A DNA stretch of 64,000 nucleotides from Pseudomonas svalbardensis (lineage in GTDB: Bacteria; Pseudomonadota; Gammaproteobacteria; Pseudomonadales; Pseudomonadaceae): assembly GCF_030053115.1 (NCBI RefSeq), contig NZ_CP125619.1:621001-685000 (forward strand), given 5' to 3'. Below, piece by piece: positions 23,706 to 28,336 of the stretch (positions are counted from its first letter, which is position 1; each line of letters begins with the position of its first letter). The notes beneath the pieces were generated by a model. It was not told the origin of the DNA, ran no database searches, and worked only from the letters and a program-made list of their open reading frames with translations. The translations under genes and the position numbers were made by a program.

Positions 23706-23758
23706 GCAATGCATTCCAAAATGTGGGAGATTCTATGTTGCAGGGCAACCCCGCAACC

Positions 23759-24694
23759 TCAGGCCGGGTGGTATTCGCTCTGATTTTTCATCAGGGCAAA
23801 TGCCACCCGGCAGAGTTTCCGGGCAAGGGCCACCAAGGCCTGGGTTTTCGAGAAGCCTCTTGCCAAATACGACTCGTAAAACGGTTTCCATTTAGCTGAG
23901 CGACAGGCTGCCATTGCGGCGTTGTAAGCCAACCGGCGGACTTCCGGATCCCCTTTTTTTGTCAGGTGCCGGGGGCCGTTCTTCTTCCCGGAGTCATCGA
24001 CCGTAAGGTCCATCCCTAGAAACGCGATGAACGCATCACTATTGGCAAAATCACCGCGCATAAAGGTCGTCGCCAACCCGGTTGCAGTCAGTTCGCCAAC
24101 CCCTTCGATGGCTTTGCAGCGGTCGATATTCTCTTCAATACCCGCCTCTTTGCTGACCTTGCGCAGCAGTTTCTGAATGGCCTGATCCGCTTGCTTGAAG
24201 GCCTTTTGCTGGGCGCTCTGTACTTTCTTCAACAAGGGTTCATTGGCCCAGCTCAGCATCAGACCGGCATGGTTCTGGATCAGCGTTGCACGTCTGTGGA
24301 GCAGGCTTTTCAGCGAGGTGTAGGCCTTGGGTGGTGGGCTCCAGATCCGCAGTCCGTCTTGTTCGTTCGTCAAATAACGCGCCAGCAGACGGGCATCGCA
24401 GGGATCGTTCTTGGCTCGTTGGCCGATGCCGCGGCGATAGTTGCTCACCCGATAAGCATCCACGACATAGACCTGGTGCCCCATCGCATGGGCCAGCTCG
24501 ACGGTGTCCAGGTGGTAGATGTTGGTGGCTTCAACGGCGATAGCGCTTTGGGCGGGCAATGTTTTAAGCCAGCGTTTGAGGGCTGTTCGATCGTTCTTGA
24601 TGGTGTCAGTGGTTAGCCGGTCGGAGCGATAGACAACTATTTCGGTCTTGGCGATATCGACGCCAACCACCGTCTGCGAAGTAAGGATTGTCAT
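23759..24694 (-). CDS. IS110-family transposase (DEDD recombinase)
   Basis: 311 residues. The N-terminal RuvC-like DEDD domain shows Asp13 (VVGVDIAK), Glu55 (AIAVEATN), Asp97 and Asp100 (KNDPCDARLLARY). The C-terminal Transposase_20 domain has IEGVGELTATGLA (helix-hairpin-helix) and FLGMDLTVDDSGKKNGPRH with the putative nucleophile Ser235. All catalytic residues are present, so the enzyme is probably active. It is expected to work with a bridge RNA made from the non-coding end upstream of it. Confidence 0.95.
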   Translation of the reverse strand: MTILTSQTVVGVDIAKTEIVVYRSDRLTTDTIKNDRTALKRWLKTLPAQSAIAVEATNIYHLDTVELAHAMGHQVYVVDAYRVSNYRRGIGQRAKNDPCDARLLARYLTNEQDGLRIWSPPPKAYTSLKSLLHRRATLIQNHAGLMLSWANEPLLKKVQSAQQKAFKQADQAIQKLLRKVSKEAGIEENIDRCKAIEGVGELTATGLATTFMRGDFANSDAFIAFLGMDLTVDDSGKKNGPRHLTKKGDPEVRRLAYNAAMAACRSAKWKPFYESYLARGFSKTQALVALARKLCRVAFALMKNQSEYHPA

Positions 24695-24719
24695 GACGAA
24701 TCCTCGGAGCTAGGGTTTA

Positions 24720-24880
24720 AGAGCTTGTCGGGGTCTACCGTTGCGCTGGCTTGCCTCTATCGTCGGTTTTACCGATGAATTCCTTATCGGCGCTTTGGGT
24801 AGAAGGGGCGGGATGAGAAGTCTCCCACGGTCTGTACTGGTCAGAATCGAGCTTTTAGTCCCGCCCACCCCTTCAAGTCT
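24720..24880 (-). ncRNA. predicted IS110 bridge RNA (limits approximate)
   Basis: Lies in the 196-base non-coding end upstream of the transposase, on the same strand. A stem GGGCGGGA (24859-24866) / TCCCGCCC (24806-24813) encloses a loop. In transcript order the loop has AAGCUCG (24854-24848), identical to the target bases left of the core, then GUGGGAG (24828-24822), the reverse complement of the target right of and including the CT core. This is the layout of left and right target guides in the IS621 bridge RNA. A second stem-loop (CCGAT...ATCGG, about 24764-24790) lies downstream. The donor loop is not resolved. Confidence 0.55.
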
Positions 24881-24916
24881 AAACATACAAGCGAGCTTGC
24901 TCGCGATAGCGTCAGA

Positions 24917-25804
24917 TCAGGCAACACTGACCTTACGGCCTAGAACTGTGGTCCAGCGCTCCGAAAGAATCACCCCACCCAGCGTCAACACCCCACCGAC
25001 CAGGTGATACATCGCCAACTGCTCATGCAGCACCACCGCCGCAATCAGCGCAGTAATCAGCGGCAGCAGATTGAAAAACAGCGTGGTCCGGCTCGGCCCC
25101 AGGCGGATCACGGCCTGCATCCACGCCAATGGCGCAACCATCGAGGCCAGCAGGCAGGCGTAAAGCACCAGCGGAATGTTCTGCACCGTCGGGCCGATCT
25201 TCGGTGAGGCGAGGAACAGCGGAAACAGCACCACCACCGCCACCCATACCTGCAAATACAGCAACACCAGCGGCGGCAAACGCAGCTGCCACTTTTTCAA
25301 TAGCGTGCTGTAGATCGCGTAGGCCAGGGTGGCGATCAGCATCATTGCGTCACCCAGGTTCACCCCGTGTTCCAGCAACGCGCCAAGGCTGCCGGAGGAG
25401 ACGACCACCAAAACCCCCGCGAGCGACAGCACCGCACCAGCCAGTGCGCCGATGGTCAGGCGCTGGCCGAGGCTAATGATCGCCATGACCAGCGACATCA
25501 GTGGCATCAGCGACAGGATGATGCCCATGTTGGTGGCCGAGGTCAGGCTCGCTGCGAAGTACGCCAGGCTTTGGTAAACAGCCATGCCGAGCACGCCGAG
25601 CACAACGATCTTGCCCAGGTTCGGGCGGATCGCTGGCCAATGGGCGATCACCGGTTTGAGCATGAAGGGTGTGAACAGCAGTCCGGCAAGCAGCCAGCGA
25701 TAAAAGCCGATCTCGGCGGGGAAGATCGCCCCGGCCGACATTTTGGTGATTACGGTGTTGCCGGCCCAGATGAAAATGGCCAGCAGGGGATAAGCGTATT
25801 GCAT
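24917..25804 (-). CDS. EamA/DMT-family transporter
   Basis: 295 residues with ten predicted membrane helices in two EamA repeats (AIFIWAGNTVITKMSAGAIF in the first; DAMMLIATLAYAIYSTLLKK in the second). Probably exports small metabolites or amino acids; the substrate cannot be inferred. The ATG at 25802-25804 is 84 bases from a divergent AraC-family gene that is the likely regulator. Confidence 0.87.
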   Translation of the reverse strand: MQYAYPLLAIFIWAGNTVITKMSAGAIFPAEIGFYRWLLAGLLFTPFMLKPVIAHWPAIRPNLGKIVVLGVLGMAVYQSLAYFAASLTSATNMGIILSLMPLMSLVMAIISLGQRLTIGALAGAVLSLAGVLVVVSSGSLGALLEHGVNLGDAMMLIATLAYAIYSTLLKKWQLRLPPLVLLYLQVWVAVVVLFPLFLASPKIGPTVQNIPLVLYACLLASMVAPLAWMQAVIRLGPSRTTLFFNLLPLITALIAAVVLHEQLAMYHLVGGVLTLGGVILSERWTTVLGRKVSVA

Positions 25805-28252: not shown

Positions 28253-28336
28253 CATCGCGAGCAAGCCCGCTCCTACATTAAACCGAGTTCCTTCAGATGG
28301 AGTACGGTCGAATGTGTGCGGGCTTGCTCGCGAAGG
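28253..28336. repeat. REP pair (inverted)
   Basis: TCGCGAGCAAGCCCGCTCC (about 28256-28274) faces GCGGGCTTGCTCGCGA (about 28319-28334) between two convergent genes; the type with GGGC instead of GAGC, as at 902-996. Confidence 0.8.

Follow-up and report, generated by a model that had tools for sequence, protein, structure and literature searches.

IS110 elements within REPs were known by 2006, as the accessible part of an early report indicates (PMC1525189). For IS621, an IS110 element of E. coli, a bridge RNA and REP targeting are described in the available sections of the original paper (Durrant et al. 2024, PMC11208160), which also presented guide-target covariation over 5,511 pairs in 2024. 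According to the available text of a companion study (Hiraizumi et al. 2024, PMC11208158), the second loop of IS621 holds the left donor guide on its 5' side, and the right donor guide pairs in two blocks with CTTGTAT, letters that we worked out from the base pairs listed in that study. A legend to an extended-data figure (PMC11208160) includes ISPpu10 as one of six elements with predicted guides and also names ISPa11. The latter, an IS1111-type element found in P. aeruginosa REPs, has a transposase-bound seekRNA with two target-complementary segments, according to the portion of the paper at hand (PMC11187229). The mechanism is clearly already known from IS621, ISPpu10 and the seekRNA, and the element described here is a natural example of it.

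The window, meaning the whole stretch of DNA analysed here, is 64,000 nucleotides long and comes from Pseudomonas svalbardensis (NZ_CP125619.1, positions 621,001 to 685,000). It holds a single copy of an insertion sequence of the IS110 group, which lies on the minus strand. The best explanation of this locus, which we regard as nearly certain, is an IS110 element with a predicted bridge RNA guiding insertion into REPs. The parts of the element are given below, the cores and target halves being read directly from the sequence.

23730-24889, minus strand: IS110 element, 1160 bp without the CT core; ends taken from nine same-genome copies at different sites
23759-24694, minus strand: IS110 transposase/recombinase, 311 aa; DEDD_Tnp_IS110 and Transposase_20 domains
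24695-24889, minus strand: long non-coding left end with the predicted bridge RNA inside; conserved in aligned relatives, with a consensus structure showing compensatory changes
24890-24891, minus strand: CT core, left copy
23728-23729, minus strand: CT core, right copy
24892-24898, minus strand: left half of the REP target, AAGCTCG
23723-23727, minus strand: right half of the REP target, CCCAC

Like IS621, as described in the available parts of the papers cited above, the element has a long left end upstream of the gene, a CT core, a REP target, a left target guide (LTG) before a right target guide (RTG), and a second loop for the donor. It also shares with IS621 the donor right side CTTGTAT and, as a candidate, a right donor guide split into two blocks, the last of which would pair with CTTG. 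Unlike IS621, it has a different REP sequence, and the two are distant relatives (their match scored about 70 bits when the PDB sequences were searched). The predicted RTG is 7 bases long versus 4 in IS621; the core-facing bases of the LTG are AU, an incomplete match to CT, whereas LTG pairing in IS621 includes the core; and the blocks of the candidate right donor guide are 5 bases apart versus 3 in IS621. Set beside it by description, ISPpu10 and ISPpu9 of P. putida are likewise IS110 elements in Pseudomonas REPs, with insertion at a single point and a 2-bp direct repeat (PMC1525189, PMC8450116, in the sections available). As in the ISPa11 seekRNA, the RNA predicted here would carry two guide segments for a REP target. 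However, in the available text the IS1111 RNA lies downstream of the gene with the guide order reversed, whereas the RNA predicted here lies upstream (PMC11187229).

The transposase matched Pfam PF01548 and PF02371, the domains of the IS110 group, both above cut-off. A PDB sequence search (E <= 0.01) returned ISCro4 (9t56, E 1e-18) and IS621 (8wt6, E 2.4e-18) only, and the D/E/D/D motifs and the SG motif aligned with those of ISCro4 as judged by eye. Named protein relatives at 87% identity were all from Pseudomonas. The gene is preceded by 195 non-coding bases and followed by 29, which is the IS110 layout (long left, short right) and the reverse of that of IS1111.

The left end contains the following predicted features of a target-binding loop:

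24859-24866, minus strand: 5' arm of the target-binding-loop stem, GGGCGGGA; sequence and compensatory changes
24848-24854, minus strand: left target guide (LTG), AAGCUCG; equals the 7 bases left of the core and covaries with the target across genomes
24846-24847, minus strand: two bases 3' of the LTG, facing the core; AU versus CT, the second base alone fitting
24822-24828, minus strand: right target guide (RTG), GUGGGAG; reverse-complementary to CTCCCAC, which contains the CT core
24806-24813, minus strand: 3' arm of the target-binding-loop stem, TCCCGCCC; sequence and compensatory changes

The first-pass annotation had proposed these two guide segments, a stem around them and a target to which they correspond. 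The positions proved exact for AAGCTCG (24854-24848) and GTGGGAG (24828-24822) on the minus strand, and the arms GGGCGGGA (24866-24859) and TCCCGCCC (24813-24806) are present. The target AAGCTCG-CT-CCCAC also reads as described, with AAGCTCG at 24898-24892 and CT at 24891-24890 on the left, and CT at 23729-23728 and CCCAC at 23727-23723 on the right. The LTG precedes the RTG, the order noted earlier as that of IS621; covariation was seen for the LTG, and the RTG hardly varies. When the 196-base end was shuffled with dinucleotides preserved (n=20000), AAGCTCG appeared in 392 shuffles and GTGGGAG in 204, and both in this order in none. The core-facing bases in relatives are CA, AA or CT, so that the full core match is confined to the four genomes with CT.

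We propose that: minus-strand transcription of the left end would yield a bridge RNA with two loops, one binding the target and the other the donor; within the target loop, AAGCUCG would pair with the bottom strand on the left of the CT core, and GUGGGAG with the top strand, starting at the core and running to the right; and the recombinase would join a circular form of the IS (ends ...CATAGAAT-CT-TGTATG...) into REPs reading AAGCTCG-CT-CCCAC. The RNA would then act as the specificity factor rather than being a correlate of specificity. In the window element, the joined ends would bring together promoter boxes TTGCCC-17-TATGTT, each matching at 4/6 positions, and the corresponding -35 box of relatives matched at 1-5/6, mostly 3-4 (raw counts in both cases, without a chance control). 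A sigma-70 promoter scan of 24600-25000 gave no site.

The genome of the window (G000), a single contig of 6.36 Mb, carries nine full copies of the IS and three short pieces. All nine lie in one orientation at one point of the REP, AAGCTCG-CT / IS / CT-CCCACA, with AGGCTCG in L016. Seven of them (L009-L015, the window's included) are without 6 bases, one CTGACT unit, between the target guides; L016 and L017 keep this extra unit in the target loop. The short loop, the commoner form in this genome, was found at seven different sites. It looks like a 6-base deletion, as the left ends of other genomes (one per genome, compared by eye) have a longer spacer of variable length, and this deletion evidently still permits transposition. 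The three pieces resembling the IS (L018, L019 and L020) comprise an IS right end of about 86 bases beside decayed transposase sequence, a truncated IS left end of about 30 bases lying in an AGGCTCG REP, and a 25-base match to the IS right end plus its target. In five of six relatives examined, the genes flanking the window's IS are adjacent without it; in the sixth, one flank only was matched. The unmatched gaps between the flanks measure 11, 17, 21, 84 and 95 bases. No exact empty site was found in these gaps, the inspected stretches being without this REP; one has an unrelated inverted repeat and another a different REP-like repeat.

A search of 398 genomes of the genus (E <= 1e-40, at most five candidates scored per genome) found 55 with a relative, the window's own included. 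The copies analysed were the nine of G000, 120 from 44 other genomes (protein identity 50-95%) and 13 more from three of these, giving 142 copies in 45 genomes. The set leaves out ten of the 55 genomes and a number of listed copies from other genomes, including partial hits; the partial copy L169 (G005) was included, and six named loci of Pseudomonas sp. TH43 and TH15 stand outside the count. A plasmid search (1373 records) returned only relatives below 60% identity, at 26.5-29% among the 25 matches listed. All 142 copies start with CT-TGTATG and end with CATAGAAT-CT, with the CT core at both ends, the ends of 133 further copies being identical to those of the window element. The right target was CTCCCAC in 130, CTCCTAC in 11 and CTCTCAC in one, and a REP-like target was recognisable in 141, L158 being doubtful on the left. 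In L141-L144 (G080) the right end, usually about 30 bases long, measures about 230 and contains another CTCCCAC stretch; and L087-L089 (G125), at different REPs, have a stop within the transposase reading frame, these three copies having either decayed after landing or been moved by the protein of another copy.

The left guide was uniform among the fetched copies within each genome (129 copies, with the 13 later ones checked by eye), and 18 types occurred in 44 genomes, for example AAGCTCG, AGGCTCG, AAGCCCG, AAGCCAG, AAGCCGG, CAATTCG, TAGTTCG and TACGCGG. With the register fixed by conserved bases 3' of the guide, LTG and target matched at 7/7 positions in 67 of the 142 copies, at 6/7 in 44, at 5/7 in 10 and at 4/7 or fewer in 21; 44 of the 75 imperfect pairs thus differed at a single position. 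When left guides were permuted among the 45 genomes (129 copies), none of 20000 permutations reached the observed mean match of 5.73/7, versus a permuted mean of 4.62 (sd 0.13). Permutation within the three stem types also gave 0/20000, and the single types gave 60, 1 and 0 of 20000, covariation being weaker in stem type I alone (60/20000). On a quick tree of 44 transposases (G005 excluded), the guide changed at least 21 times, a minimum only slightly above the 17 changes that 18 types need anyway. On the right side, the sequences are consistent with pairing: G094 and G356, which carry the RTG variant GUAGGAG, have CTCCTAC targets; 8 of the 11 CTCCTAC targets (G254, G364, G367) face the usual GUGGGAG guide through a G-T wobble; and in G080 the guide GUGAGAG faces CTCCCAC. 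As the right guide is near-constant, this side says little and is hardly a test of pairing. The earlier expectation that target variants would covary with both guides was therefore borne out across the 142 copies and 45 genomes for the left guide, which tracks its target (0/20000), but the right guide varies too little.

Copies at targets unlike their guides were few. Fifteen of the 21 poor matches came from four elements (G383, G128, G005, G301) in which the guide is apparently shifted by one base. With such a shift allowed, six of 142 copies remained at 4/7 or fewer (L069, L071, L124, L126, L127 and L158), two at 2/7, one at 3/7 and three at 4/7; L069 and L071 (G214) have an extra base beside the core in the left target. 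An unchanged guide at an unrelated target, which the first-pass annotation took as evidence against guiding, was approached by these six and most plainly by L158 (G186), whose left target TTGGTAG has no likeness to its guide AAGCCCG. In L158 an identical stretch of 18 bases (CTCCCACATTTGGTAGCT) stands on both sides of the IS, a longer duplication noticed here only and without systematic search. Given these 18 bases and the unrelated left target, this copy may have been rearranged after insertion or may have inserted irregularly. Milder mismatches run in both directions. L016, L088 and L192 combine the guide AAGCTCG with the target AGGCTCG (one mismatch), and single copies in G290, G267 and G205 combine the guide AGGCTCG with the target AAGCTCG, AGGCTCG not being the commonest type of these hosts. 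The latter combination makes a G-T wobble, and should be tolerable although the match is imperfect.

To relate insertions to the REPs on offer, intact sites of four REP types (AAGCTCG, AGGCTCG, AAGCCCG and AAGCCAG, each followed by CTCCCAC) were counted in the 45 genomes. G000 has 637 such sites, namely 64 AAGCTCG, 490 AGGCTCG, 81 AAGCCCG and 2 AAGCCAG. Its guide is AAGCTCG, and eight of its nine copies lie in that 11% class (P = 1.9e-7; binomial, occupied sites added). G125 has the same guide as the window's element and 106 AAGCTCG versus 777 AGGCTCG sites, and six of its seven copies lie in AAGCTCG, a 10% class (P = 7.8e-6). When the two are pooled, 14 of 16 copies are in the guide's type, with 170 intact AAG and 1267 AGG sites. 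G341, an AAGCTCG-rich host, has eight of nine copies in AAGCTCG, which is uninformative alone (P = 0.37). Most other genomes are also uninformative singly, because the commonest REP type is the guide's type or copies are few. An apparent enrichment in G367 (three of five copies in a 3% class) was withdrawn, because the first counts lacked the 932 REP sites of this genome that read AAGCC[AC]-CTCCTAC, almost every listed one of which has AAGCCAG. Against the background of host REP make-up, the mean match of 99 of the 142 copies was 5.91 versus 5.55 expected (0/100000), and that of the 83 copies outside G000 and G125 was 5.72 versus 5.45 (0/100000). This test excluded 43 of the 142 copies, for a left target outside the four types, a right target deviating from CTCCCAC (as in one of the two G254 copies), fewer than 20 counted REPs, or membership of G367. 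A literature search of limited journal coverage found no report of a within-genome preference for a minority REP type.

These counts bear on the possibility that the protein alone recognises REPs, by sequence or hairpin, and that the guide-like letters are leftover REP sequence within the left end or have drifted with the REPs of the host. A REP-like target in 141 of 142 copies fits such a protein. In 15 of 24 genomes the guide also agrees with whichever counted REP type is most frequent in the host, versus a mean of 8.0 under permutation (15 was reached by 26 of 20000 permutations; G367 is scored as a disagreement owing to the missed CTCCTAC REPs), so the host explains some of the agreement; tests on independent pairs of guide and host REP had only 2-5 pairs, too few to decide. 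However, the copies of G000 and G125 avoid the commonest type, 14 of 16 being in the guide's type, and the elements of G125 and G341, 99% identical in DNA and with the same guide, sit in hosts of opposite REP make-up and yet place 6/7 and 8/9 of their copies in the same type. The within-genome test speaks against a protein simply favouring REPs, and recognition by protein alone, already strained by it, appears very improbable to us.

Still less probable, in our view, is that the left end serves only as a regulatory 5'-UTR or antisense-RNA target, without a guide. There is precedent in ISPpu9, whose tnp has a structured 244-nt 5'-UTR and an antisense sRNA (Asr9) affecting translation, according to the available part of that report (PMC8450116), and a terminator-like hairpin lies on the plus strand of the window element at 24760-24778 (two such sites in the window versus 0.5 expected). 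A purely regulatory role leaves the target-linked variation of the loop segment 24848-24854 unexplained, although regulatory and guide roles may coexist in the left end. From the plus-strand hairpin together with the Asr9 precedent (PMC8450116, same part), an RNA antisense to the predicted bridge RNA is possible. The bridge-RNA reading of the left end, as put forward in the first-pass annotation, is well supported by the covariation of the left guide (0/20000) and by the choice of a minority REP type (8/9, P = 1.9e-7).

The fold of this RNA is seen in comparison only. Folded singly, the left end is unremarkable (z = -1.25; 22 of 200 shuffles at least as stable), so the structural claim rests on the comparison of relatives. 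The consensus fold of 47 distinct left ends (G091 excluded) reached -19.0 kcal/mol, versus column shuffles (n=100) that averaged -4.8 and attained -15.0 at best. In this fold 98.5% of cells are paired, and in 6 of 29 pairs both partners have changed, for some of these pairs in one sequence only. It consists of an outer CUUG/CAAG stem, the target-loop stem, a hairpin between the target guides and a GCGC stem of the donor loop. The fold suggested earlier thus holds for the target-loop stem, where compensatory changes from G-C to A-U occur among the 47 left ends, but does not stand out in the left end of the window's element alone. An Rfam search of the left end (E <= 1) matched no family. The outer stem and the donor-loop features are:

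24874-24877, minus strand: 5' arm of the outer closing stem, CUUG; pairs with CAAG 24724-24727, near-invariant in 47 sequences
24724-24727, minus strand: 3' arm of the outer closing stem, CAAG; consensus fold
24790-24793, minus strand: 5' arm of the donor-binding-loop stem, GCGC; invariant in 47 sequences, hence no covariation signal
24743-24746, minus strand: 3' arm of the donor-binding-loop stem, GCGC; consensus fold and sequence
24779-24785, minus strand: candidate left donor guide AAGGAAU; 5/7 to donor ATAGAAT, loop position and IS621 geometry
24750-24760, minus strand: candidate right donor guide AU(AGAGG)CAAG versus donor CTTGTAT; resembles the discontiguous right donor guide pairing of IS621

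In the donor loop, AAGGAAU on the 5' side is the likelier candidate for the left donor guide, judging from its place; many relatives have AAAGAAU at this position, with 6/7 to donor ATAGAAT. A weak ATAGA match to the donor end, mentioned in the earlier annotation, is real and lies at 24756-24760, but on the 3' side of the donor loop, which rules it out as a left donor guide. The window IS starts CT-TGTAT like IS621, and the 3' side of the loop reads AUAGAGGCAAG, so ATAGA is most simply read as the start of the right donor guide. Both candidates would pair with the donor, whose ends are invariant in all 142 copies and offer no covariation signal. CAAG at 24724-24727 was also considered as part of the right donor guide, and was rejected as the consensus fold places it in the outer closing stem.

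Some other structures were noted. At the IS right end, directly past the stop codon, an inverted repeat lies at 23737-23757 (minus strand), the arms of which vary among relatives with pairing kept (e.g. GTTTGGGGG/CCCCCAAAC and GTTGAGGG/CCCTCAAC). In 25 of 45 genomes the fold of the 30-base stretch at this end is at least as stable as -8 kcal/mol, and the rest have no strong fold; one guess is a 3' hairpin of the transposase mRNA. An Rfam microRNA family match at 23747-23826 (E 0.59, under the gathering score) is taken as chance. Elsewhere in the window, 28255-28333 consists of paired inverted REP-like repeats (a REPIN-like hairpin), and its Rfam label MIR6459, under the gathering score, is very likely false.

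The overall picture of IS110 function is unchanged by these results. What the element offers is a clean natural sign that the landing site of an IS110 is set by the bridge-RNA guide and not by the host's commonest repeat, the hundreds of near-identical REPs in one genome being built-in controls. Its copies also yield a natural table of tolerated mismatches and spontaneous guide changes, which could help bridge RNA design. We tentatively suggest, giving it slightly less than an even chance, that in this lineage of REP-inhabiting IS110 elements the bridge RNA is adjusted again and again to the REP dialect of its host, sometimes with a delay. On this view the element of G000, whose guide fits only about one in ten of the counted REPs, would be a newcomer to the genome, or a relic of an earlier REP repertoire, that still finds its minority target. 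If this is true, REPs and guides would evolve in mutual pursuit, and a guide would preserve traces of previous hosts.
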